From: Elusimicrobiota bacterium
GTDB taxonomy: Bacteria; Elusimicrobiota; Elusimicrobia; UBA1565; UBA9628
DNA length: 35,470 bases
Direction of reading: 5' to 3'
Assembly: GCA_003151975.1 (NCBI GenBank)
Contig: PLZD01000059.1
Coordinates: forward strand, 59,099-94,568
Shown here: positions 1,791 through 12,691 of the stretch, piece after piece
How positions within the stretch are numbered: the first letter of the stretch is position 1
Layout of the letters: every line of letters starts with the position of its first letter
Position numbers and translations under genes: made by a program
Notes under the pieces: generated by a model
Databases searched by the model: none
Told to the model about the DNA's origin: nothing
Seen by the model: the letters and a program-made list of their open reading frames with translations, nothing else

Positions 1791-1818
1791 TTTTGCGCTT
1801 CATTAAACTTGCTAAGAT
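1791..1818 (+). promoter_or_regulatory. Possible promoter of cytochrome/puuD-like pair, leaderless type
   Basis: TAAGAT at 1813-1818 lies 8 bases before the ATG at 1827, with TTTTGC (1791-1796) 16 bases upstream as a weak -35. The expected transcription start coincides with the ATG, and no Shine-Dalgarno sequence precedes it. The same arrangement recurs at other genes in the window. Confidence 0.35.
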
Positions 1819-1826
1819 TGCCTCGC

Positions 1827-2465
1827 ATGGCGTGGTCGACGATTCTTATCCTGCTTCTCGGCCTTACGACGGCCTTCGCCGAGGACAATCCCGGCCGCGC
1901 TCGCTTCGACGCGATGGGCTGCCGCGCCTGCCACTCGATCGGCAATGTCGGCGGCAATTCCGGCCCGGACCTGACCTTCGTTGGCTTTCGCCGCACGCGC
2001 GAGTGGCTCGACATGTGGCTGAAGGATCCGAAAGTGTGGAAGCCCGACACGAAGATGCCCAACTTTCGTCTCAAGGACGCCGACCGCGGCGCCATCGTGG
2101 AATATTTGACCACTCTCAAAGGCCAGGACTTCGCTGGCAAGCCGCCGTGGAAGAATGGGGAGGAGATTTACCGGCTCGCGGGCTGCGTCGCCTGCCACGG
2201 ACCGCAGGGTCGCGGCGGCATGCCCCAGAATAATTTTCACGGCAACCAGATCCCGGCCGTCTACAAGGTGGCCGAAGGATACACATTCGACGAACTGGCA
2301 AAGCGCATACGCAGCGGACGCATTCCGGAGCCGCAAGACCCCTCGCTGCCGCCGCCCAAGGTTGCGATGCCGGCGTGGGGCAAGGTCCTCGACGACGGCG
2401 AGATCGCGAGCGTCGCGCAATATCTCATGTCGCTGGCGCCGCCGAAACCCAAGGACGACTTTTAG
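1827..2465 (+). CDS. Periplasmic diheme c-type cytochrome
   Basis: Electron-carrier protein of 212 residues with an N-terminal signal peptide (hydrophobic stretch at residues 4-17, then AFAED). Two class-I cytochrome c domains follow. The first has CRACH at residues 32-36 with a probable axial Met near 77 (KMPNF). The second has CVACH at 120-124 with a probable axial Met near 181 (AMPAW). The ATG at 1827 was chosen over a TTG at 1809 because it places the signal peptide at the N-terminus. The stop codon TAG forms part of the AGGAGG ribosome site of the next gene, a PuuD-like membrane protein, so the two are surely co-translated. In canonical PuuD proteins a cytochrome c domain is fused to the C-terminus of the membrane part; here the cytochrome appears to be a separate upstream gene. 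Electron donor and acceptor are unknown. Confidence 0.88.
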   Translation: MAWSTILILLLGLTTAFAEDNPGRARFDAMGCRACHSIGNVGGNSGPDLTFVGFRRTREWLDMWLKDPKVWKPDTKMPNFRLKDADRGAIVEYLTTLKGQDFAGKPPWKNGEEIYRLAGCVACHGPQGRGGMPQNNFHGNQIPAVYKVAEGYTFDELAKRIRSGRIPEPQDPSLPPPKVAMPAWGKVLDDGEIASVAQYLMSLAPPKPKDDF

Positions 2466-2472
2466 GAGGACC

Positions 2473-3291
2473 ATGGACATCAACTGGCTCGAATGGGCGA
2501 ATCTCTTCACGCGCTGGTTCCACGTGATTGCCGGCATCACCTGGATCGGCCAGACCTATCTGTTCAACTGGATGGAGCGCGCGCTCGAGGCGGCGCCGGA
2601 CCCCGCGGCCAAGCCCAACATCTCGGGCGAGCTGTGGATGGTGCACGGCGGCGGCTTTTATCTCGTCGAGAAGCAGAAGTGGCCCGAGATCATGCCGCGG
2701 ACCCTGAATTGGTTCAAATGGGAGTCGGCCCTGACCTGGATTTCCGGCGTGCTGCTGCTCGGCATCGTCTATTGGGCCGGGGCGCCGCTCTTGCCGTACG
2801 GCTCGGCGTTCTCGCAGGCGCAGGGAATCGGAATCTCGCTGGGCGTGCTCGTCGGCGGCTTTCTCGTCTACCGTCTCATATGGGACACGCCGCTCGGCAA
2901 GAACGAGCCGGTCGGCGTTCTGATCTCGTGGGCGATGATCGTCGCTTTGGCCTACGGCCTCAATCAATACTTAAGCAACCGCGCGACGTATCTTCACATC
3001 GGCGCGATGTTCGGCACGATCATGGTCAGCAACGTCTGGATGATCATCATCCCGAATCAGAAGAAAATGATCGCGATCGCGAAAGCGGGGGAGCCGCCTC
3101 GGCCGGAGCTCGCCAAGCGCTCGGCGCGCTGCTCGCGGCACAATACCTACATGTCGGTCCCGCTGATCTTCACGATGATCTCGAATCACTTCCCCGACGC
3201 GACGTTCGGGCGCGACTGCGGTTGGGCGATTCTTGGCGGGTTGGTGCTGCTGGGTTTCGGCGCCGCGAAGATCATCCGCGACTATCTTTAG
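2473..3291 (+). CDS. PuuD-like (urate hydroxylase family, DUF989) membrane protein without cytochrome domain
   Basis: Multi-pass inner-membrane protein of 272 residues resembling the N-terminal membrane half of PuuD. Family hallmarks are the N-terminal RWFHVIAGITWIG segment, the HGGGFYLVEKQK segment after the first helix, and the N.WMIIIPNQKKM loop near residue 200. About seven hydrophobic segments are visible, with conserved histidines that could bind heme. PuuD of Agrobacterium-type bacteria carries a C-terminal cytochrome c; this protein stops after the membrane part, and the partner cytochrome is encoded 8 bases upstream. A perfect AGGAGG precedes the ATG. No purine-catabolism gene lies nearby, so urate oxidation is not supported. 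A membrane redox protein delivering electrons to, or taking them from, the upstream cytochrome is the safer reading. Its stop overlaps the stop of the convergent methyltransferase gene (TTAG). Confidence 0.8.
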   Translation: MDINWLEWANLFTRWFHVIAGITWIGQTYLFNWMERALEAAPDPAAKPNISGELWMVHGGGFYLVEKQKWPEIMPRTLNWFKWESALTWISGVLLLGIVYWAGAPLLPYGSAFSQAQGIGISLGVLVGGFLVYRLIWDTPLGKNEPVGVLISWAMIVALAYGLNQYLSNRATYLHIGAMFGTIMVSNVWMIIIPNQKKMIAIAKAGEPPRPELAKRSARCSRHNTYMSVPLIFTMISNHFPDATFGRDCGWAILGGLVLLGFGAAKIIRDYL

Positions 3292-4511
3292 CTCCGGGCT
3301 TCTCCGAGCGGCTTGCGCATGCAGCCCAGATAGCCGACGCGCGTCGAACGCGTCAGCGTGAACGTGAAGTCTGGGTGCACGCGCCGGTGCAATAAAGACG
3401 ACGCGAACGCCGCGTTGAGCGCCGGCCGGATGCCGATCAGGTCGAGAGGCTCTAGCCCGCACGCGCGGCCGGCGGCCTGAAGTTCGGCGGGCGTGACGAA
3501 CATCCGGTACGAGTGCACGTTGCTTGGGCCCTCGCGCGTGACAAAGCCGATGCCCTTGACCGCCAGCAGCCAGGCCTCGAAGGTCCGGTTGAACGTATGG
3601 AAGACCAGGACGCCTCCGGGCTTGAGCGCGCGCGCGGCCTCGGCCACCGCCCGCGCCGGCTCGTCGAGGTGCTCGATCAGGTCCATCATAAGAACCGCGT
3701 CGTAGGAGGCCGGCGCCTCAGCCAGCGACAGCGCGTCGCCGACGGCGTACGTCGCGTCGGCGGCGAGCGGGACGCGCGTGCGCGCGGCGTCCAGAGACCG
3801 CGGTGAACGGTCCACGCCTTTCACGCGGAAGCCGTCCCCCGCGAGCGGGTTGGAGAGGAAGCCCCCACCGCAGCCGATGTCCAGAATCCGCGCGCCCGGC
3901 CCAACGCCCGCGCGCGCAAGCGCTCCGCGGACGTACGCCAGGCGCGTCGGCGTCTCGGCGCGCAGCAGCGCGATAGGATGCGCGTCGCCTTCGTGCCAAC
4001 TTTCGCCGAGCTCGTCGTAGAACTCGTTGTCTACCAGCGGCCCGGTCTCCCGACGGAAGCGACGACCGCCGATCCAGTAAAGCCATTGATAAAAAGAATA
4101 GGCGGCGACCACGGCCGGCAGGCCCGCGCGCAGGAGCCCATCCTCGCCGCGCGCCCACAACGCGCCGACCGCGAGCAGCACGCACGGATGCAGTACGAAG
4201 AGCAGAGCGTGGAGCCACTGCTCGGTCCCGCCGCACTCTCGCGCGTGGATCCACTCGTCCTTGGTCACGAGAACCGTTGAGGCCGCAGCTAGCGCCGCGT
4301 AGAGTAGCGCAGCACCCCGCGTCGGCGCGAGCAGGGCGGCCGGGGCAAGCGCCGCCGCGAAGACGGCCGAATCCGCGACGTGGCCCCAGCTCTCCCATTC
4401 GCCGAGCGTGCGCGCACGGTGGAAGACGCGCTCATCGACGATCATCAGCGCGGCCTGAAGCCCGGCCAACGGCGCGGCCGAAGCGGCAAGCGCGCCGACG
4501 AGGGGCATCAT
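3288..4511 (-). CDS. Membrane-domain/UbiG-type SAM methyltransferase fusion, type III PKS partner
   Basis: Protein of 407 residues in two parts. Residues 1-150 are hydrophobic, with about four membrane segments. They carry charged residues set as in metal sites: DERVFH (26-31), WGH..D (42-47), KDEWIH (84-89), E97, H101 and H108. Residues 160-400 are a class I methyltransferase of the UbiG/Coq3 kind, with DNEFYDELGESW before the core, motif I DIGCGGG at 211-217, a DLIEHLDEP segment and a LKPGG loop. The start at 4511 gives an ATGA overlap with the polyketide synthase stop, so translation is coupled. Inference: it methylates the phenolic or pyrone product of the synthase at the membrane. Whether the N-terminal part is a second enzyme, such as a metal-dependent oxidase, or only an anchor cannot be decided. 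Its stop overlaps that of the convergent puuD-like gene. Confidence 0.82.
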   Translation of the reverse strand: MMPLVGALAASAAPLAGLQAALMIVDERVFHRARTLGEWESWGHVADSAVFAAALAPAALLAPTRGAALLYAALAAASTVLVTKDEWIHARECGGTEQWLHALLFVLHPCVLLAVGALWARGEDGLLRAGLPAVVAAYSFYQWLYWIGGRRFRRETGPLVDNEFYDELGESWHEGDAHPIALLRAETPTRLAYVRGALARAGVGPGARILDIGCGGGFLSNPLAGDGFRVKGVDRSPRSLDAARTRVPLAADATYAVGDALSLAEAPASYDAVLMMDLIEHLDEPARAVAEAARALKPGGVLVFHTFNRTFEAWLLAVKGIGFVTREGPSNVHSYRMFVTPAELQAAGRACGLEPLDLIGIRPALNAAFASSLLHRRVHPDFTFTLTRSTRVGYLGCMRKPLGEARS

Positions 4512-5647
4512 CGGCGTTTGCGCGCGCGCAGGAGATTGGCGACCAGGGTCAGCCCCGGCCCGAAGGCGAGCGACAAGATCAGTTCCCCGTGGCGCACGTC
4601 CGGATCGTCGAGCATCTCGCCCCAAACGTGCGGGAGGGTGGCCGACGACATGTTGCCGCGGCGGCGCAGGAGGGCGCGGCTGTGGCGCGCGGCGTCCTCG
4701 GGCAGGCCCAGCGCTCTTAAAACCTGGTCGATCACGCTCGGACCGCCGGGATGGATGGCGAAGCGCGAGACATCGCGGAGGCTCCGCCCCGAGCGGCGCA
4801 GGAAGCGCTTCGTGAAATCCGCGACCGCGCCGCCGACCAGAGCGGGCACGGCGCGGCTCAGCGTCATTTCGAAGGACGAGTCCTGCAGGCGCCAGGTCAT
4901 CTCGCGCGCGGAGCGGGGGAGGATTTCCTCGGCGGAATCGAGCAGGGCGAGCGACCGGGGGACGGGCGCTGCGCTCACGTCGAAACGGACCGCGCCATCG
5001 GCGAAAAGCGAGTTGACGACGACCTGCTCGTCGGTGGAAGCACCCGGCTTTAGGTGCAAAGTGCAGAGCTCGGCAAAGAAGAGCGCGACCCGGGCGCGCG
5101 GGCGACCCGTCGCGGCTTCGCCGCGCGCGATCTTGGCCGCCATCGCGGCCGCGGGCACCGAGGCATAGCAGCCCATGTGGCCGACGTGAAGCACGCGAGA
5201 GTCCCAGCCGCGGCGCGAAACGACGCGCTGAATCGCGTGCGGCGACGCGTAGCCCGTGCAGGAGACCTGGACGGCGTAGTCCGGCGCGCGTTCGCCGGGA
5301 CGAAATGCCCGCCCGGCCAGCCGCAGAACCGCGTCCTCGTAAACTTGCATCCGCGCCTGCAAAGCGGGGCGGTGCCAGGGAGCGTCCGCGCCGGCTTTAA
5401 ACAGCGTCATCTTTTTCCAATCGCGCCGGGAGTAGTCGGCGAGCGCGCTGACGCGCGTCTGGATCGCGCCGCCGCGGCCGAGACGGTCGTACAACGACGA
5501 CGCCCTGCGATCCTGGACGTCGAGGCGGCCGCCGCGCGTCCGCGTCAAAGCTTGCTTCAGCCAGGACGCGATATCCGCCTGCGCCAGCGGCGCGCCGACC
5601 GTGAGGGGTCTGAAATCATGCAAAAACGCGACCGGCTCCGGCTTCAT
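4508..5647 (-). CDS. Type III polyketide synthase (chalcone/stilbene synthase superfamily)
   Basis: Thiolase-fold homodimeric enzyme condensing an acyl-CoA starter with malonyl-CoA units. The protein has 379 residues, usual for bacterial members. The catalytic triad can be read: Cys160 in HMGCYAS, His299 in FAIHPGGPS and Asn332 in GNMSSAT. VSCTGY at 128-133 corresponds to the conserved segment before the active-site helix. The ATG at 5647 has GGGAGG (5653-5658) six bases upstream, the strongest ribosome site around. The gene is first in a two-gene minus-strand operon with the fused methyltransferase. The pairing suggests a methylated alkylresorcinol, alkylpyrone or phenolic lipid product, as in Azotobacter ars or Bacillus bps loci, but the starter and chain length cannot be read from sequence. 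The gene is divergent from argR and shares its upstream region. Confidence 0.9.
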   Translation of the reverse strand: MKPEPVAFLHDFRPLTVGAPLAQADIASWLKQALTRTRGGRLDVQDRRASSLYDRLGRGGAIQTRVSALADYSRRDWKKMTLFKAGADAPWHRPALQARMQVYEDAVLRLAGRAFRPGERAPDYAVQVSCTGYASPHAIQRVVSRRGWDSRVLHVGHMGCYASVPAAAMAAKIARGEAATGRPRARVALFFAELCTLHLKPGASTDEQVVVNSLFADGAVRFDVSAAPVPRSLALLDSAEEILPRSAREMTWRLQDSSFEMTLSRAVPALVGGAVADFTKRFLRRSGRSLRDVSRFAIHPGGPSVIDQVLRALGLPEDAARHSRALLRRRGNMSSATLPHVWGEMLDDPDVRHGELILSLAFGPGLTLVANLLRARKRR

Positions 5648-5736: not shown

Positions 5737-5772
5737 TTGACATCGAGCGACCTATTGTGTATAATTATGCAC
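5737..5772 (+). promoter_or_regulatory. Consensus sigma-70 promoter of the arginine operon with overlapping ARG-box-like palindrome
   Basis: TTGACA (5737-5742), 17 bases, TATAAT (5760-5765): both hexamers match consensus exactly. The -10 lies inside GTGTATAATTATGCAC (5757-5772), an inverted repeat with one mismatched pair and the AT-rich centre typical of ARG boxes bound by ArgR. A second weaker half-site (ATGAATAAGTATG, 5778-5790) follows. ArgR bound here would cover the -10 and start site, so arginine-dependent autorepression of the whole operon is inferred. Confidence 0.75.
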
Positions 5773-5777
5773 TAGTT

Positions 5778-6242
5778 ATGAATAAGTATGCCAACAGAGA
5801 CGAGCGCAAATCGGCCCGGCAGGCCGCCATCCTCGAGGTCATCGCCAAAGAGGCCGTCGCGACGCAGAACGATCTCGCCAAGGCGCTTAAATCTGCCGGC
5901 ATCCACGCCACGCAAGTCTCGCTCTCGCGCGACATCGCCGAGCTCGGACTCGTGAAGGCGGGCGGAAAATACCAGTCCGCGCCCTCGATGACGGGCGCCG
6001 CCGATCCGGAGCTTCCCCTGCGCACCTCTTTGCGCAGCGCGGTGGCCGCCGGACCCAATCTCGTCGTTCTGCGCACCGACACCAGCGCCGCCCAGCCCGT
6101 GGGCCTCGTGATCGATCGCATGAGCATGCCCGGCATCGTCGGTACGATCGCGGGAGATGACACCGTTTTCGTGGCGGTCGCAAACCAAGCGGCCAGCAAG
6201 AAGCTGCTCGACTATCTCAACGCGAGGATCAAAAGATCATGA
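5778..6242 (+). CDS. argR: Arginine repressor ArgR
   Basis: Hexameric arginine-sensing regulator of 154 residues, the normal family length. The N-terminal winged helix-turn-helix contains the recognition segment TQVSLSRDIAELGLVK. The C-terminal arginine-binding and oligomerisation domain ends in the hallmark GTIAGDDTVFVAV. The ATG at 5778 was chosen because the in-frame GTG at 5757 lies upstream of the predicted transcription start, within the promoter. From the -10 hexamer the ATG is 12 bases away, so the message is nearly leaderless and has no ribosome site. Its stop overlaps the argG start (ATGA). The palindrome over its own promoter suggests autorepression, and because argR heads the operon it would control all arginine genes after it. 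Confidence 0.93.
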   Translation: MNKYANRDERKSARQAAILEVIAKEAVATQNDLAKALKSAGIHATQVSLSRDIAELGLVKAGGKYQSAPSMTGAADPELPLRTSLRSAVAAGPNLVVLRTDTSAAQPVGLVIDRMSMPGIVGTIAGDDTVFVAVANQAASKKLLDYLNARIKRS

Positions 6243-7483
6243 AGCGCCCCAAGATCATACTGGCTTTCAGCGGAGGTCTCGACACGACCTTCTGCGCGCT
6301 CTGGCTCAAGAACGAAGTCGGCGCCGAGGTCGTGACTGCGACCGTGGACACCGGCGGCTTCACGAAAAAGGAGCTTGCCGCCATCAAGGCCGGCTCCAAG
6401 GCTCTGGGCGCAAGCGCCCATTACGAGCTCGACGGACGAGATGAAGTCTTCGCGCGCTTCATCGTCCCGTTGATCCAAGGAAACATCCTGCGAGGGAGAG
6501 TTTATCCGCTTTCGGTCGCGGCCGAGCGCGTGCTTCAAGCCGAGCTCGTCGCCAAGCTCGCCGTGAAACTCGGCGCCGAAGGCGTCTGCCACGGTTCGAC
6601 GGGCGCGGGAAACGATCAGATTCGATTCGACGGCGTGTTCCAGGCGGTGGCTCCGAAGCTCAAGGTTCACACGCCCGTGCGCGATCTCGGCTGGTCGCGC
6701 GCGCAGGAGACGGAGTATCTCGCCAAGCACGGCGTCAAGGTTGCGCCCAAGACCGAGGCGTACTCGGTCAACGCGGGACTTTGGGGCACGACGGTCGGCG
6801 GCGGCGAGACCCACGATCCGTGGATCGAGGTTCCCGACGCCGCATATCCCGGTGAAAGCGGCTCTATTAAAGGAACGAAGGACCTCGTGATCGGTTTCGA
6901 GAAGGGCATTCCGGTCTCGCTCGACGGCAAGGCCATGTCGGGTGCGGCGCTCGTGCATGCGGTCGGCGAGCTCGGACGCTCGTACGGCCTCGGCCGCGGC
7001 GTGCACATGGGCGACACGATCCTCGGCATCAAGGGACGCATCGGCTTTGAGGCCTCGGGGCCGCTGATCCTGATCGCGGCGCACTCTGAGCTCGAGAAGC
7101 TCGTGCTCACGCGCTGGCAGTCGTTCTGGAAAAACCACATCGCCGATTTCTACGGCCAGATGCTGCACGAGGGTCTGTATTTTGATCCCGTTATGAGGGA
7201 TATCGAAGCCCTGATCACCTCCAGCCAACAAACCGTCACGGGACAAGCCCGTGTGCGGCTGCGATCGGGCCGCTTCGACGTGACCGGCGTGAAGAGCCCT
7301 TACAGCCTCGTCTCGGCGGGCGCATCCTACGGCGAGACGAGCAAGCTTTGGACGGGCGCGGAAGCCGCGGGCTTTGCCAAGCTGCACGCTTTGCCCATGA
7401 CGTTGGCGAGACAAGCGCGATTGAAGGCGGAGATGACCGAAGGGAATGGTTTGACTCCGGTTGGCATAGGGAGAAAACCATGA
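6239..7483 (+). CDS. argG: Argininosuccinate synthase
   Basis: Cytoplasmic enzyme joining citrulline and aspartate with ATP to give argininosuccinate, the penultimate arginine step. It has 414 residues. Motifs: N-terminal PP-loop AFSGGLDTTF at residues 9-18, HGSTGAGNDQIRFD (ATP and citrulline contacts) near 120, and YSVNAGLWGTTVGGGE near 180, the last in the form seen in Bacteroidetes-type enzymes rather than the NLWGR form of Proteobacteria. Second gene of the operon, translationally coupled to argR and, by another ATGA overlap, to the P-loop gene behind it. Placing argG at the front and argH at the end of the operon fits a cluster that makes arginine from glutamate, apart from the first acylation and carbamoyl phosphate supply. 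Confidence 0.95.
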   Translation: MKRPKIILAFSGGLDTTFCALWLKNEVGAEVVTATVDTGGFTKKELAAIKAGSKALGASAHYELDGRDEVFARFIVPLIQGNILRGRVYPLSVAAERVLQAELVAKLAVKLGAEGVCHGSTGAGNDQIRFDGVFQAVAPKLKVHTPVRDLGWSRAQETEYLAKHGVKVAPKTEAYSVNAGLWGTTVGGGETHDPWIEVPDAAYPGESGSIKGTKDLVIGFEKGIPVSLDGKAMSGAALVHAVGELGRSYGLGRGVHMGDTILGIKGRIGFEASGPLILIAAHSELEKLVLTRWQSFWKNHIADFYGQMLHEGLYFDPVMRDIEALITSSQQTVTGQARVRLRSGRFDVTGVKSPYSLVSAGASYGETSKLWTGAEAAGFAKLHALPMTLARQARLKAEMTEGNGLTPVGIGRKP

Positions 7484-8538
7484 AAGTAACGCTCGATAAG
7501 ATCGCATCGGCCACGAAGAACGCGCGCATACCGCGCGAGGTCCTGCTCAGCGAGGACGTGCCGGCCCAAGAGGGCATGGTGCTCGCCGTGCGCGTGCACG
7601 GGACCAAGACCGTCTACAACCAGCTCGAGGACACGCACGGCCGCATGATCGGCCTCAACGACGGCGACGTGATCGCGGCCGTGCTGGGATCGCGGCGCGC
7701 GCTGCGCGGCTACGCGGGTATGGTTCCGCAAAGCGTGAAAGTCGGAGACAAGCTCGACATTCTGAACCTCGGCGGCGTCATCGGGCGCTGCACGTCGACC
7801 AACATCGAGCTCGGCCGGCCTCTCCAGGCCGAGGTGCTCGGCCAGGTGCTGACCTTCCCGTTTCTCGGAGAGCGCGAGGGCGTCCCTGCATCAATAAGAA
7901 CGAACGCCATTCCTTGGAGCGAGACGCTGGATCATTCCGCTCCTATCGTCTATGTCGCTGGGACCTGCATGAACGCCGGCAAGACCTTCGCCTGCGGCGA
8001 GATCATCCGCTACCTCACGCGCAAAGGCTACCGCGTCTGCGGCGCCAAGCTCACCGGCGTCTCGCTTTTGCGCGACACGCTGAGCATGATCGACCGGGGC
8101 GCTATCGCCAGCCTCTCGTTTAACGACGCGGGGGTCGTTTCGACGACCGACGCGGTCTCGATGCCGGTCTCGAAAGGCCTGCTGAACGCTCTTAATAAGG
8201 AAGAGCCCGACTGTTTGGTCGTGGAGCTCGGCGACGGCATCCTGGGAGAATACGGAGTCCAAGCCATTCTCGCCGACGACGAGCTCATGGCTCCGGCCGC
8301 CGCGCACATACTTTGCGCGACCGACCCCGTGGCCGCGTGGGGCGCCGTCGAGCTCTTCAAGAACCGCTTCAAGCGCGAGGTCAGCCTGATCTCGGGGCCC
8401 GCCACCGACAACGCCGTCGGCAAGGACTTCATCGAGAAGCAGATCGGAGTCAAGGCGCTCAACGCGCGCATCGAGTACGAGCAGCTCGGCGCGTTCGTCG
8501 AGGCGGCGGTCTTCGGGAACAAGAATGAAGAAGCTTAG
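7480..8538 (+). CDS. P-loop protein of unknown function in arginine operon (BioD/MobB/DUF1611-like)
   Basis: Not a named arginine enzyme. The 352-residue protein has two parts. Residues 1-125 are beta-rich with many glycines (EGMVLAVRVHG, GLNDGDVIAAVLG, VGDKLDILNLGG). From about 155 there is a nucleotide-binding core: Walker A GTCMNAGKT at 161-169, then CGAKLTG near 187-193, PDCLVVELGDGILGEYG near 243-259, and a late CATDPVAAWG segment. The order P-loop, A-x-x-TG, then an acidic strand with G-x-G recalls DUF1611/DgcN and BioD/MobB proteins. DgcN has been reported to N-acetylate D-glutamate (from memory). It is locked between argG and argC by 4- and 14-base overlaps, with GGGAG before its ATG. 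No glutamate N-acetyltransferase is recognisable in the operon, so a role in glutamate acylation is an attractive but untested inference. Confidence 0.7.
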   Translation: MKVTLDKIASATKNARIPREVLLSEDVPAQEGMVLAVRVHGTKTVYNQLEDTHGRMIGLNDGDVIAAVLGSRRALRGYAGMVPQSVKVGDKLDILNLGGVIGRCTSTNIELGRPLQAEVLGQVLTFPFLGEREGVPASIRTNAIPWSETLDHSAPIVYVAGTCMNAGKTFACGEIIRYLTRKGYRVCGAKLTGVSLLRDTLSMIDRGAIASLSFNDAGVVSTTDAVSMPVSKGLLNALNKEEPDCLVVELGDGILGEYGVQAILADDELMAPAAAHILCATDPVAAWGAVELFKNRFKREVSLISGPATDNAVGKDFIEKQIGVKALNARIEYEQLGAFVEAAVFGNKNEEA

Positions 8539-9556
8539 AATCGGCATCGAGGGCGGCGCGGGATTTGCGGGCGGCGAGCTCATACGGATTTTGCTCTCGC
8601 ATCCGAAGGTGCAGATCGCGCAGGCGACGTCGTCGACTTTCCCCGGCCAGCCCGTCTTCATGGCGCACCCGAACTTGCGCGGGAGAACCGACCTCAAGTT
8701 TTCACTGAAGCTCGACTATGACCGCCTCGACGTCTTGTTCATGGCCGGCGGCCACGGCGACGCGATGGGCGAGGTTCCGGCCATCATCCACCAGGGCGCC
8801 AAGAAGCTGCGGATCATCGACCTGTCAGGAGATTTTAGGCTCAAAGATCCGGCGCTCTATCCCGAGTGGTACGGGCGCACGCATCATTCGCCGGAACTGC
8901 TGAAGAGTTTCTCGTACGGGCTCACCGAGCTCAACCGCAAGAACATCGCCAAGGCGCGCTGGATCGCAAATCCAGGGTGCTTCGCGACCGCGGCCGCGAT
9001 CGCGCTGGGGCCGCTGGCGCGCGGCGGCGTGACGGGCACGGTCGCGGTCACGGCGGTCACGGGCTCGTCGGGCTCGGGCGCCTCGCCGTCTCTCATCACG
9101 CATCACCCTACGCGGCACGCCAACATGAAGGCCTACAAGCCGTTCCGGCATCAGCACGTGCCCGAAGTCGAGATGATCCTCGAGCAGTTGGCAGGCCGCA
9201 AAGCGCTTAAGCTTTCATTGGTTCCGGTGTCCGGCCCGTTTGCGCGCGGCATCTACGCGGTCTGCCAGACCGACCTGCCCAAGGGCTGGACGCTCGAGAC
9301 GGTCAAGAAGCTCTACATCGATCTTTACGGCGGCAGTTCGTTCGTGCGTCTCGTCGAGGAGCCTCCGACGCTCGGCGCCGTCAACGGCAGCAATCATTGC
9401 GACGTCTACGTCACGGTCCAGGACGGCCGCATCGGCGTCATCTCGGCCATCGACAACCTGATCAAGGGCGCTTCCGGCCAAGCGGTGCAAAACCTCAACG
9501 TGATGATGGGCTGGGACGAGAAAACGGGCTTGGACTTCGCGGGGCACTATCCATGA
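8525..9556 (+). CDS. argC: N-acetyl-gamma-glutamyl-phosphate reductase
   Basis: NADPH-dependent reductase converting N-acyl-glutamyl phosphate to the semialdehyde, third step of arginine synthesis. The protein has 343 residues. The N-terminal Rossmann segment reads IEGGAGFAGGELIR, where IxGAxGYxGxEL is usual, so it is slightly variant. IIDLSGDFRL (near 98) and the catalytic Cys in ANPGCFAT (near 148) are intact, as is the later HQHVPE segment. The ATG lies 14 bases inside the end of the P-loop gene, and its stop overlaps the next start (ATGATGA). It shares the pathway intermediate with argB and argD products encoded downstream. Confidence 0.95.
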   Translation: MKKLRIGIEGGAGFAGGELIRILLSHPKVQIAQATSSTFPGQPVFMAHPNLRGRTDLKFSLKLDYDRLDVLFMAGGHGDAMGEVPAIIHQGAKKLRIIDLSGDFRLKDPALYPEWYGRTHHSPELLKSFSYGLTELNRKNIAKARWIANPGCFATAAAIALGPLARGGVTGTVAVTAVTGSSGSGASPSLITHHPTRHANMKAYKPFRHQHVPEVEMILEQLAGRKALKLSLVPVSGPFARGIYAVCQTDLPKGWTLETVKKLYIDLYGGSSFVRLVEEPPTLGAVNGSNHCDVYVTVQDGRIGVISAIDNLIKGASGQAVQNLNVMMGWDEKTGLDFAGHYP

Positions 9557-10716
9557 TGGATTGGAAGAAAGAAGAAGATAAATTCGTCCTGCCGACGTAC
9601 GAGAAATTCCCGTTCGTCCTCGAGCGGGGGGAAGGCTGCTTCGTTTGGGACGACGAGGGGAACAAATACCTCGATCTGTACGGCGGCCACGCGGTCTGCG
9701 CGTTGGGGCACTCGCCCAAAGCCGTCTGCGATGCGATTTCGGAGCAATCGAAAAAGTTGCTCTTCTATTCAAACCTGGTCTACCACCCGGAGCGAGCGAG
9801 AGCGGCCCAGCGACTCGCGGACCTCTGCGGCGGCGGCCAGGTCTTTTTCTGCAACTCGGGCGCCGAGGCCAACGAGAACGCGATGCGCGTGGCGCGCTTG
9901 GTCACCGGCAGGCCGATGATCCTGGCGACGATGGGCTCGTTCCACGGACGCACGGCCGGCGCCATGGCCGCCACGGGAAACCCGAAGTACATGAAGCTCT
10001 CGGGCCTGGGCGCTTCCGTCGCGCACGTGCCGTTCGGCGACATCGCGGCGGCGTCGGCCATGATCGACGAGCAGACCGCGGGCGTGCTGCTCGAGCCGAT
10101 CCAAAGCATGGCGGGCATCGTCGAGCCGCCCGAGGGCTACCTCGAGGCGCTCGAGAAGCTCTGCCGCGAGCGCGGCGCGCTTTTGATCTTCGATGAGGTC
10201 CAGACGGGCCTCGGCCGCGTCGGCGCGCGGAGCGCCGCGGAGCTGTTCGGCGTGAAGCCCCACTTGCAGACCTTCGCGAAGGCGCTCGGCTCGGGCGTTC
10301 CCGCCGGCGCCGTTCTCGCCTCGCCGGAGATCGCGGCGAAAGTAAAACAAGGCGATCTCGGCTCGACCTTCGGCGGCGGGCCGCTGGCCTGCGCCGCGGT
10401 CTCGGCCACGCTCGGTGAAATCTCTGGGCGCAAACTTTGGGAAAACGCAGCGAAGATGGAAGCGCTCGTACGGGAAACCTTCAAGCTCCCGCGCATCAAA
10501 GCGATCCGGGGCAAAGGCCTTTTGCTCGGCATCGTTTTGGACGGCCCATCGAAGGCCGTGCGCAAAGCTTTGCTCGAGAAGCGCATACTCGTCGGCGGCG
10601 CGGACGATCCAAACGTGATCCGTTTGCTGCCGCCGCTGACGGTGACGGAGAGCGAGATCCTAACGCTCAGGAACGCCTTGGCCGAAATATTCGCCGGCGA
10701 GGCCGTGGCGGCATAA
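9553..10716 (+). CDS. argD: Acetylornithine aminotransferase (class III PLP enzyme)
   Basis: PLP-dependent aminotransferase giving N-acylornithine from the semialdehyde and glutamate. It has 387 residues and starts at the ATG overlapping the argC stop; a second ATG follows at once at 9556. Landmarks are LDLYGGHAVCALGHS near the N-terminus, FFCNSGAEANENA (PLP phosphate site), SFHGRTAGAMAATG, the IFDEVQTGLGR strand with the PLP-pairing aspartate, and TFAKALGSGVPAG, which contains the Schiff-base lysine. The class also includes succinylornithine and ornithine aminotransferases; operon position decides for arginine synthesis. Only two bases separate it from the carbamoyltransferase gene. Confidence 0.93.
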   Translation: MMDWKKEEDKFVLPTYEKFPFVLERGEGCFVWDDEGNKYLDLYGGHAVCALGHSPKAVCDAISEQSKKLLFYSNLVYHPERARAAQRLADLCGGGQVFFCNSGAEANENAMRVARLVTGRPMILATMGSFHGRTAGAMAATGNPKYMKLSGLGASVAHVPFGDIAAASAMIDEQTAGVLLEPIQSMAGIVEPPEGYLEALEKLCRERGALLIFDEVQTGLGRVGARSAAELFGVKPHLQTFAKALGSGVPAGAVLASPEIAAKVKQGDLGSTFGGGPLACAAVSATLGEISGRKLWENAAKMEALVRETFKLPRIKAIRGKGLLLGIVLDGPSKAVRKALLEKRILVGGADDPNVIRLLPPLTVTESEILTLRNALAEIFAGEAVAA

Positions 10717-10718
10717 CC

Positions 10719-11747
10719 ATGAAGCACTTCACGCATCTGCGCGATTTCAGCAGCGCGGAGTTCGTCGCGCTGGCCGAGGAAGTCTTGCGGCTCAAGAAAA
10801 ATCCGCCGACGGACAAGCCGCTCGCGGGCAAGACCGTGGGTCTCTGCTTTATGAACCCGTCCTTGCGCACGCAGGTCTCGACCGAGGTCGCCGCCGTGTC
10901 GCTTGGCGCGCACGCCATCGTGCTGGCGCTGGGCACCGATACCTGGAAGATGGAGTTCGAGGACGGTGCCGTCATGGACGGTGCTGCCGCCGAGCATTTG
11001 AAGGAAGCCGTGCCGGTCCTTTCGCGCTACTGTCAGGCTTTGGGCCTGCGCTCTTTTCCGAACGGCGCGAGCTGGGCCGAGGACAAAAAGGAACCGTATT
11101 TGTCCGCGTTCAAGAAATACGCGACGGTGCCCGTCGTTAATCTTGAGTCCGCCACCGGCCATCCATGCCAGGCCTTGGCGGATCTTGCGACGATCAAAGA
11201 GCGCATGAAGCCGAAGGGCAAGAATTTCCTGCTGACCTGGGCGCCGCACATCAAGGGCCTGCCGATGGCGGTGCCGAATTCGACCGCCGAGATGGCCGCG
11301 GCGGGCGGAATGAACGTGACGATCGCGCGGCCCGAGGGTTTTGACCTCGATGGCGAGATCATGAAGAATGTCCGCGCGCGCTGCGAGGAAAACGGTTCCT
11401 CGCTGACCGTGACCGACAAGGTCCCCGAGGCTTATGAGGAACAGCACGTGGTTTACGCGAAGTCGTGGGGCTCGATTAAGGACTACGGCAAACCTCTTCC
11501 GTCGGATGCCGCCTTCCGCGCCAAGTGGATGGTCACGCCCGATAAAATGAAGAAGACCGATGACGCCATCTTCATGCACTGCCTGCCCGTGCGGCGCAAC
11601 CTCGTCGTGCACGACGGCGTGCTCGACGGGCCGTGGTCGGTCGTCGTCGACCAGGCCGAAAACCGCCTGCACGCCGCCAAAGCCGTTTTGCTCAATTTGC
11701 TCGCGCCCCATAAACTCGAAACCGCCGCAAGGAGACACGCTCGATGA
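10719..11747 (+). CDS. argF': N-acylornithine carbamoyltransferase (acetyl- or succinylornithine type)
   Basis: Transfers the carbamoyl group to an N-acylated ornithine instead of ornithine, giving N-acylcitrulline. The 342-residue protein carries NPSLRT (46-51) for carbamoyl phosphate, WKMEFEDGAVMDG (76-88), TWAPHIKGLPMAVPNS in the middle, and HCLPVRRN near the end, features of the Xanthomonas AOTCase and Bacteroides SOTCase family rather than classical OTCase. At the loop where, from memory, AOTCase has Glu92 and SOTCase has Pro90, this protein has Ala (DGAAAEH, Ala91). A lysine in RLHAAKAVL matches the position of the carboxylated lysine of AOTCase, which favours an acetylated substrate. 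The adjacent M20 deacylase and argB fit the pathway. Substrate choice remains inferred. Confidence 0.88.
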   Translation: MKHFTHLRDFSSAEFVALAEEVLRLKKNPPTDKPLAGKTVGLCFMNPSLRTQVSTEVAAVSLGAHAIVLALGTDTWKMEFEDGAVMDGAAAEHLKEAVPVLSRYCQALGLRSFPNGASWAEDKKEPYLSAFKKYATVPVVNLESATGHPCQALADLATIKERMKPKGKNFLLTWAPHIKGLPMAVPNSTAEMAAAGGMNVTIARPEGFDLDGEIMKNVRARCEENGSSLTVTDKVPEAYEEQHVVYAKSWGSIKDYGKPLPSDAAFRAKWMVTPDKMKKTDDAIFMHCLPVRRNLVVHDGVLDGPWSVVVDQAENRLHAAKAVLLNLLAPHKLETAARRHAR

Positions 11748-12691
11748 CCGACTCGCCCATCATGCTCAAGCAGGCCATTCCCTACATCCGCCTGTATAAA
11801 GGAAAGATTTTCGTCGTGAAAGTGGGAGGCCGCATCGTCGGCCGCCGCGACATGCTCGACAACTTGATCGAAGACATCTGCCTGCTCCAGCAGGTCGGCG
11901 TCAAGATCGTGCTCGTCCACGGCGGCGGGCCGCAGGCCACCGAGATGTCCCGGAAGTTGGGTCTCGAGCCCGAGATCATCGCCGGCCGCCGCGTGACCGA
12001 CGCCAAGACCCTCGAGGTCGCCAAGATGGTCTACGCGGGCACGCTCAACATCGACATCCTGTCCTCGTGCCGGACGCACCACAGCCCCGCCGTCGGCATC
12101 TCCGGCGTCGACGGCGGCCTCATCACCGCGCACAAGCGGCAGAAGGGCATGGTCGAGAAGACGCCGGGCGCCGAGCCCGTCGAGGTCGACTTTGGATTTG
12201 TCGGCGACATCGACAAGGTTAATCCCAAAGTCCTCAATCATCTTTTGGAAGGCGGCCTGACGCCCGTCGTCTCGTGCCTCGGCGCCGACGAGGAAGGCGT
12301 CATACTCAACATCAACGCGGACTCGGTCGCGCAGGCCATCGCGGGCGCTTTGGGCGCCGAGAAGCTCGTGATCGTGACCGACACCGAGGGCCTGCTCAAG
12401 GACGCCTCCGATCCGTCGAGCTTGGTCTCATACACGGATGCCGAGGAGATCGAGACCTTCAAGCGCGAAGGGCGCCTTACGGGCGGCATGTTGCCCAAGG
12501 TCGACGCGTGCGTGAAGGCGCTTCGGGGCGGCGTGCGCCGCACCCACATCATCAACGGCACCAAGCCGGGTGCCCTTCTTCGAGAAATCTTCACCAACGC
12601 CGGCTGCGGCACGATGATCGTCGAGCGCCGCGAGAAGCAGACTTACCAGCAGGCGGAGCTTGCGCCCGAGCCGCAGGCGGTCTCTGCGTGA
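11744..12691 (+). CDS. argB: Acetylglutamate kinase
   Basis: Amino-acid-kinase-fold enzyme phosphorylating N-acetylglutamate, usually the arginine-inhibited step. The 315-residue protein has FVVKVGGR near residue 22, LVHGGGPQ near 57 (substrate glycine loop), GRRVTDAKTLEVAKMVYAG, NINADSVAQAIAGALGAEKL, VTDTEGLL, and GGMLPKVDACVKAL near the C-terminus. It has a charged C-terminal extension of about 20 residues beyond the usual domain. The start overlaps the stop of the carbamoyltransferase gene (ATGA), with AAGGAG about 9 bases upstream. The substrate assignment (acetyl against succinyl) is tied to that of the preceding gene. Confidence 0.94.
   Translation: MTDSPIMLKQAIPYIRLYKGKIFVVKVGGRIVGRRDMLDNLIEDICLLQQVGVKIVLVHGGGPQATEMSRKLGLEPEIIAGRRVTDAKTLEVAKMVYAGTLNIDILSSCRTHHSPAVGISGVDGGLITAHKRQKGMVEKTPGAEPVEVDFGFVGDIDKVNPKVLNHLLEGGLTPVVSCLGADEEGVILNINADSVAQAIAGALGAEKLVIVTDTEGLLKDASDPSSLVSYTDAEEIETFKREGRLTGGMLPKVDACVKALRGGVRRTHIINGTKPGALLREIFTNAGCGTMIVERREKQTYQQAELAPEPQAVSA

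Follow-up and report, generated by a model that had tools for sequence, protein, structure and literature searches.

Results

A type III polyketide synthase gene overlaps a gene for a membrane domain-methyltransferase fusion

We analysed a stretch of 35,470 nucleotides from an Elusimicrobiota bacterium (assembly GCA_003151975.1, contig PLZD01000059.1, positions 59,099 to 94,568 of the forward strand), hereafter the window. The list of open reading frames (ORFs) and their translations places two genes on its minus strand, at window positions 3288-5647. These encode a type III polyketide synthase (PKS) and a protein in which an N-terminal membrane domain (NT) is fused to a UbiG-type methyltransferase (MT), and the ATG of the fusion gene overlaps the stop codon of the PKS gene by 4 nucleotides (Table 1). 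An earlier note on this DNA had described such a pair, and both ORFs are present where it reported them. Its residue numbering agrees with the ATG at 4511; a TTG at 4625, which would give an ORF of 445 amino acids, was rejected as the start of the fusion gene, since that codon falls within the PKS gene.

The window PKS scores above the cut-off of the Chal_sti_synt_C profile (PF02797), and its closest solved relatives are the type III PKS structures 3vs9 and 3vs8 (E=3.8e-46, over amino acids 96-371 only), which we take to be ArsC of Azotobacter vinelandii and which are not known to be accompanied by an NT or a UbiG. Judged by profile, catalytic triad and these PDB relatives, the protein is a type III PKS. 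The MT domain passes the curated NCBIfam UbiG profile (TIGR01983), contains the DxGCGxG motif of S-adenosylmethionine (SAM) binding and is the sole UbiG above the cut-off in its genome; it differs from UbiG itself, a 2-polyprenyl-6-hydroxyphenol/3-demethylubiquinol O-methyltransferase, in being fused to, or encoded beside, NT and a PKS. This confirms the UbiG-type assignment made in the earlier note and fits a phenolic or quinol substrate.

Table 1. Coordinates, in the window, of the two genes, their domains and their conserved residues (aa, amino acids; pLDDT, predicted local distance difference test score; pTM, predicted template modelling score).
Feature	Position	Strand	Basis
Type III PKS, 379 aa	4508..5647	-	ATG 5647, stop 4508; PF02797 E=1.5e-18
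NT-MT fusion, 407 aa	3288..4511	-	ATG 4511, stop 3288; translation
NT membrane domain, aa 1-150	4062..4511	-	AlphaFold2 pLDDT 93.5, pTM 0.88
UbiG-like SAM methyltransferase domain, aa 165-361	3429..4019	-	TIGR01983 124 bits, cut-off 102.95
PKS catalytic Cys130	5258..5260	-	C in 36/37 aligned, one gap
PKS catalytic His299	4751..4753	-	H in 37/37 aligned
PKS catalytic Asn332	4652..4654	-	N in 37/37 aligned
Codons of invariant candidate ligands D26 E27 H31 E40 H44 D47 D85 E86 H89 E97 H101 H108	4188..4436	-	43/43 PKS/MT-linked

NT represents an undescribed membrane protein family

Neither Pfam nor NCBIfam gave a profile over the cut-off, whether NT was scanned by itself or in each of the 37 aligned members; the best profile score was a weak match to FA_hydroxylase (E=0.046) in 1 of the 37, and a PDB sequence search with an NT profile gave no match at E 10. 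The domain is likewise undescribed in the open-access literature on type III PKSs with Bdellovibrio, Elusimicrobia, UbiG or diiron enzymes. By these sequence comparisons, NT is a real, undescribed membrane protein family.

Of 341 Elusimicrobiota genomes, 8 encode a full-length NT-MT protein, seven of these proteins being relatives of the one in the window (42-70% identity). When two short NT patterns were run against approximately 85,000 species genomes, 39 loci were recovered, and most of the members are stand-alone genes of approximately 145-190 amino acids. The titles of the records, from which the taxa are taken, name Elusimicrobia, groups of Bdellovibrionota, Myxococcales/Polyangiaceae/Kofleriaceae, Chlamydiae, Acidobacteria/Holophagaceae and Fibrobacteria, with a few Pseudomonadota or unnamed organisms; titles of metagenome-assembled genomes can err, as may be so for one locus (L059) titled Nitrosovibrio. 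NT matches were also found in 53 of 192 sampled genomes of Bdellovibrio's phylum, and none was found in a search of plasmids.

Seventeen columns are invariant in the alignment of 37 NT sequences (D26, E27, H31, R34, E40, H44, D47, S78, K84, D85, E86, H89, E97, H101, L104, F105 and H108), in which mean column identity is 42%. His, Asp or Glu occupies 12 of these 17 columns as against a background of 11% (binomial p=1.5e-8), an invariance far beyond chance, and all twelve residues are kept in 43 of 43 members linked to a PKS or MT. The invariant columns contain no HxxHH box. The earlier note had singled out His31, His44, Asp47, Asp85, His89, Glu97, His101 and His108, each of which is present and invariant in both sets; D26, E27, E40 and E86, absent from its list, are equally so, and R34, S78 and K84, also absent from it, are equally invariant in the 37. 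What it observed was therefore correct and stronger than stated, and its interpretation is plausible.

Divergent NT paralogues in Bdellovibrio's phylum that have no PKS or MT nearby (n=12; L104-L115) divide these residues. D85 is lost in all 12 (usually as D85N), as is C93; H89 is lost in 11 (usually as H89Y), H44 in 11 and H31 in 7. D26, E27, E40, D47, E97 and H101, by contrast, are kept in 12 of 12. Both kinds of gene are found together in one genome (G376), in which L119 is linked and L110 unlinked. Conservation thus proved strict among PKS-linked homologues, with key residues lost in the unlinked ones, which supports the reading of the earlier note. The pattern sets a shared core of residues, possibly structural, apart from a subset (H44, D85 and H89) associated with the lipid pathway.

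The conserved residues lie at one end of a predicted helix bundle

AlphaFold2 predicts five transmembrane (TM) helices in the window NT (residues 12-34, 38-60, 65-83, 95-120 and 125-148) and a short helix at 86-92, and an unfused NT member was modelled with similarly high scores (pLDDT 95.2, pTM 0.88). By the predicted topology the invariant polar residues all lie at one membrane end, where TM1 and TM3 end, TM2 and TM4 start and the short helix 86-92 is found. On average they lie 9 A deep, compared with an expected 17 A (p=0.003), and conservation falls on one helix face in TM1 (p=0.01) and TM4 (p=0.015), the other helices not being significant. Lys and Arg make up 22.7% of the loops at the conserved end as against 8.3%, so that by the positive-inside rule this end would be the cytosolic side; the MT domain, which comes next, would lie on that side too. 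The earlier note had proposed structure prediction to see whether its residues converge and had likened them to the sites of membrane oxidases or desaturases. The polar residues did gather as a coherent set towards one end of the bundle, their convergence being read from topology and helix faces and not from atom distances; no profile over the cut-off and no PDB fold match established the likeness to known families.

PKS, NT and MT form a dedicated cassette

A type III PKS gene is directly upstream of NT in 36 of the 39 loci of the NT-only scan, and a UbiG-like MT is fused to NT or directly downstream of it in 34 of 39; the usual layout is a stand-alone NT gene between the genes for PKS and MT, so that stand-alone homologues beside type III PKS genes, which the earlier note had suggested seeking, do exist. 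The cassette spans at least six phyla, Bdellovibrio included. The MT does not adjoin NT in B. bacteriovorus (L054) and its relatives L067 and L047, each of which has an MT homologue elsewhere in its genome (36-49% identity, E 1e-50 to 6e-75). In L061 the MT is a few kilobases upstream, L068 is on a short contig without an MT, and L077 begins inside NT. Two loci from one Elusimicrobiota genus (L039 and L040, in genomes G009 and G015) have an NT-MT fusion without a PKS alongside.

In a maximum-likelihood tree all 36 NT-linked PKSs fall on one side of a branch (support 100/99), separate from the other PKSs of Elusimicrobiota, and the distance matrices of PKS, NT and MT correlate with one another (r 0.75-0.85). 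Fusions of NT to MT are seen in Elusimicrobiota, Holophagaceae (L065) and some Bdellovibrionota (L116-L118), and L052, the sister of L065 in the tree, is unfused. This scatter indicates that the fusion arose more than once, and repeated fusion, as read here from the sequences, is a classical sign of two proteins working together. No neighbour beyond the three cassette genes was common to many loci. The association of PKS, NT and MT is firm, and dedicated.

In two Bdellovibrio loci a gene for an NDH-2-like flavoprotein lies directly upstream of the PKS-NT pair (L054, 3549-4820; L067, 3562-4815). This neighbour, seen in two related genomes only, would fit a quinone product and hints at a connection with quinone reduction.

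NT stands where related operons have a flavin enzyme

Operons that combine a type III PKS, a methyltransferase and an oxidoreductase make alkyl-quinones that serve as electron carriers (PMC9927152) or related alkylresorcinols (PMC10896814). Among them are pkqABC of mycobacteria and Streptomyces and srsABC of S. griseus, in which one operon encodes all three kinds of enzyme and which yield alkyl-benzoquinones as their known products (PMC9927152), and tricistronic planctomycetal and cyanobacterial (hierridin) operons, in which a PKS and a methyltransferase are joined by a flavin adenine dinucleotide (FAD)-dependent oxidoreductase (PMC10896814). The window operon shares with the pkq and srs types a PKS and an MT in one operon and lacks their flavin oxidoreductase: whereas pkqABC and srsABC carry an annotated oxidoreductase or hydroxylase, here there is an unrelated five-helix membrane protein and a methyltransferase of UbiG type, and NT sits where the planctomycetal and hierridin operons have the FAD oxidoreductase.

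The same contrast is found within Elusimicrobiota. A flavin oxidoreductase lies beside 10 of 17 PKSs without NT, as against none of the 37 NT-linked loci when 4.5 kb was searched with a handful of query proteins, some loci being cut by contig ends; the exact probability of approximately 8e-7 for this difference would hold only if the loci were independent, which they are not. The flavin enzymes are of two types, one of them near models for 3-hydroxybenzoate 6-monooxygenase/salicylate hydroxylase, and most of the loci that have one also carry a different methyltransferase. The presence of a flavin oxidoreductase in NT-less clusters, and its absence beside NT, suggests that NT takes the slot of the oxidising enzyme. 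We also note a set of Elusimicrobiota type III PKS clusters of another clade (L078-L093), in which a flavin oxidoreductase is accompanied by a PRK06202-like methyltransferase; this arrangement resembles the planctomycetal and cyanobacterial operons.

Discussion

We present evidence that an undescribed membrane domain belongs to a cassette with a type III PKS and a UbiG-type MT, and it is this domain that would be new, inside a known kind of lipid pathway. It seems probable, from the invariant His, Asp and Glu residues, that NT binds a metal of some kind. UbiG-type enzymes methylate a hydroxyl adjacent to another oxygen, which fits a ring that NT would have hydroxylated, and the slot of an oxidising enzyme together with an MT of this type favours a membrane, metal-dependent ring oxygenase. 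We therefore propose, tentatively and at somewhat less than an even chance, that NT is the dedicated and probably metal-dependent ring oxygenase of a polyketide-lipid pathway. That NT oxygenates, and with what substrate and product, we infer as follows. The PKS, to judge by its family, would join a long acyl starter and malonyl units by condensation into a lipid of the alkylresorcinol or alkylpyrone type; the cytosol-facing cluster of NT, probably with one or two metal ions, would hydroxylate or oxidise the ring; and the MT, on the same membrane face, would O-methylate the new ortho-hydroxyl as in ubiquinone synthesis. The end product would be a methoxy-quinol or methoxy-quinone lipid resembling the actinobacterial polyketide quinones, with NT replacing the flavin oxidoreductase of pkqABC-, srsABC- and hid-type operons. 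Oxygen chemistry would be possible in this organism, since its genome encodes complex I and COX1, the oxygen-reducing terminal oxidase. Having a terminal oxidase was dropped as a discriminator of carriers from non-carriers, as most relatives have one. The idea of the earlier note that one protein might both oxidise and methylate the polyketide is partly supported, among other things by the related operons in which this slot of the cassette holds an oxidoreductase (PMC9927152, PMC10896814).

Several observations weigh against this proposal. Foldseek and VIA-align, run with two NT models, found no match to a known oxygenase; the best Foldseek E values were 0.83-3.6, and the best VIA-align hit was to bestrophin at Z of approximately 10, within the range of unrelated helical bundles, and we do not accept a bestrophin kinship at a level common to such bundles. 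The sole PKS match in each of G009 and G015 falls in the other clade, and the substrate of NT-MT may thus not always be the product of this PKS. The absence of a flavin enzyme was established with few query types and across loci that are phylogenetically non-independent. The retention of a partial set of residues in the unlinked paralogues suggests that part of the set may be structural. Lastly, the metal, the activity and the product are each predicted from sequence and context.

The lack of an oxygenase fold match could also be expected if NT were a metal-dependent membrane hydrolase or another non-redox lipid enzyme, for example one that releases or cyclises the polyketide. Membrane hydrolases of small size with His, Asp and Ser are known (the CREST superfamily), and the invariant S78, K84 and R34 alongside the His, Asp and Glu set would suit such an enzyme. 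Type III PKSs, however, normally release and cyclise their products unaided, and the third slot of the sister operons holds an oxidoreductase, not a hydrolase (PMC10896814), and we consider a hydrolase rather unlikely. The five invariant His residues in or next to helices, with H44 and H101 at a similar computed depth, call to mind instead a heme or electron-transfer protein like a b-type cytochrome, which would oxidise the quinol or link the lipid to respiration, and for which the NDH-2-like gene upstream in Bdellovibrio may also be counted. A cluster that also holds seven invariant acidic residues would nevertheless be unusual for a bis-His heme site, and paralogues that retain the acidic residues have other residues in place of H44 and H89; this, too, appears unlikely, and a little more so.

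It is also conceivable that NT serves mainly as an anchor or scaffold by which PKS and MT are recruited to the lipid, its conserved residues being structural. Its repeated fusion to MT would be accounted for in this way, as would orphan paralogues in which the fold and some of the residues persist in the absence of a PKS, but an anchor does not need 12 invariant His, Asp and Glu residues, and NT is kept as a stand-alone gene in many phyla. The selective loss of H44, D85 and H89 in the unlinked paralogues only points rather to a functional site, and we think a mere anchor quite improbable. If NT does bind metal in this pathway, it might catalyse another reaction, for example halogenate or dealkylate its substrate or desaturate the alkyl chain. 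Chemistry of this kind is known in general from dimetal membrane enzymes, and the single member that touches FA_hydroxylase could be read in this light; given the UbiG-type partner and the slot in the operon, ring oxidation is the more likely, which leaves other metal chemistry the least probable of these possibilities. With the membrane di-iron fatty-acid hydroxylases and desaturases NT shares the general idea of a His-rich, cytosol-facing membrane site. Its spacing is one of repeated E/DxxxH as opposed to the HxxHH boxes of those enzymes, and neither a profile match over the cut-off nor the His boxes of the fatty acid hydroxylase/membrane desaturase superfamily, nor a fold match to it, was found in NT.

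If NT is indeed a ring oxygenase, it might found a new family of membrane-embedded, probably dinuclear metal oxygenases that serve the lipids of type III PKSs. Predatory Bdellovibrio, Myxococcota, Chlamydiota, Elusimicrobiota and others would then have a methoxy-quinone of polyketide origin, made as in ubiquinone synthesis by hydroxylation followed by UbiG-type methylation; we regard this wider proposal as possible but doubtful. For actinobacteria, polyketide quinones have been described as alternative electron carriers of respiration. A parallel cassette whose oxidising component is unrelated, present in at least six other phyla, would extend them to predators and uncultured lineages through an enzyme family that is named in no profile library. 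A direct test of the proposal is possible, as the unlinked paralogues with their natural D85N and H89Y replacements would be ready-made inactive-site controls. In the window genome menD, mqnA and MpqE gave no match above the cut-off and UbiA-like genes are present. The PKS/MT operon might be a candidate for the genome's only source of quinone, though the UbiA-like genes speak for caution.

The genes on either side of the operon are on the opposite strand. A cytochrome c gene followed by a gene for a membrane Urate_ox_N (PuuD-like) protein (window 1809-3288, plus strand) converges on the PKS/MT pair. Divergent from the PKS gene is a run of arginine genes (5757-12688, plus strand) that encode ArgR, argininosuccinate synthase, a semialdehyde dehydrogenase (ArgC-like) and an amino acid kinase (ArgB-like).

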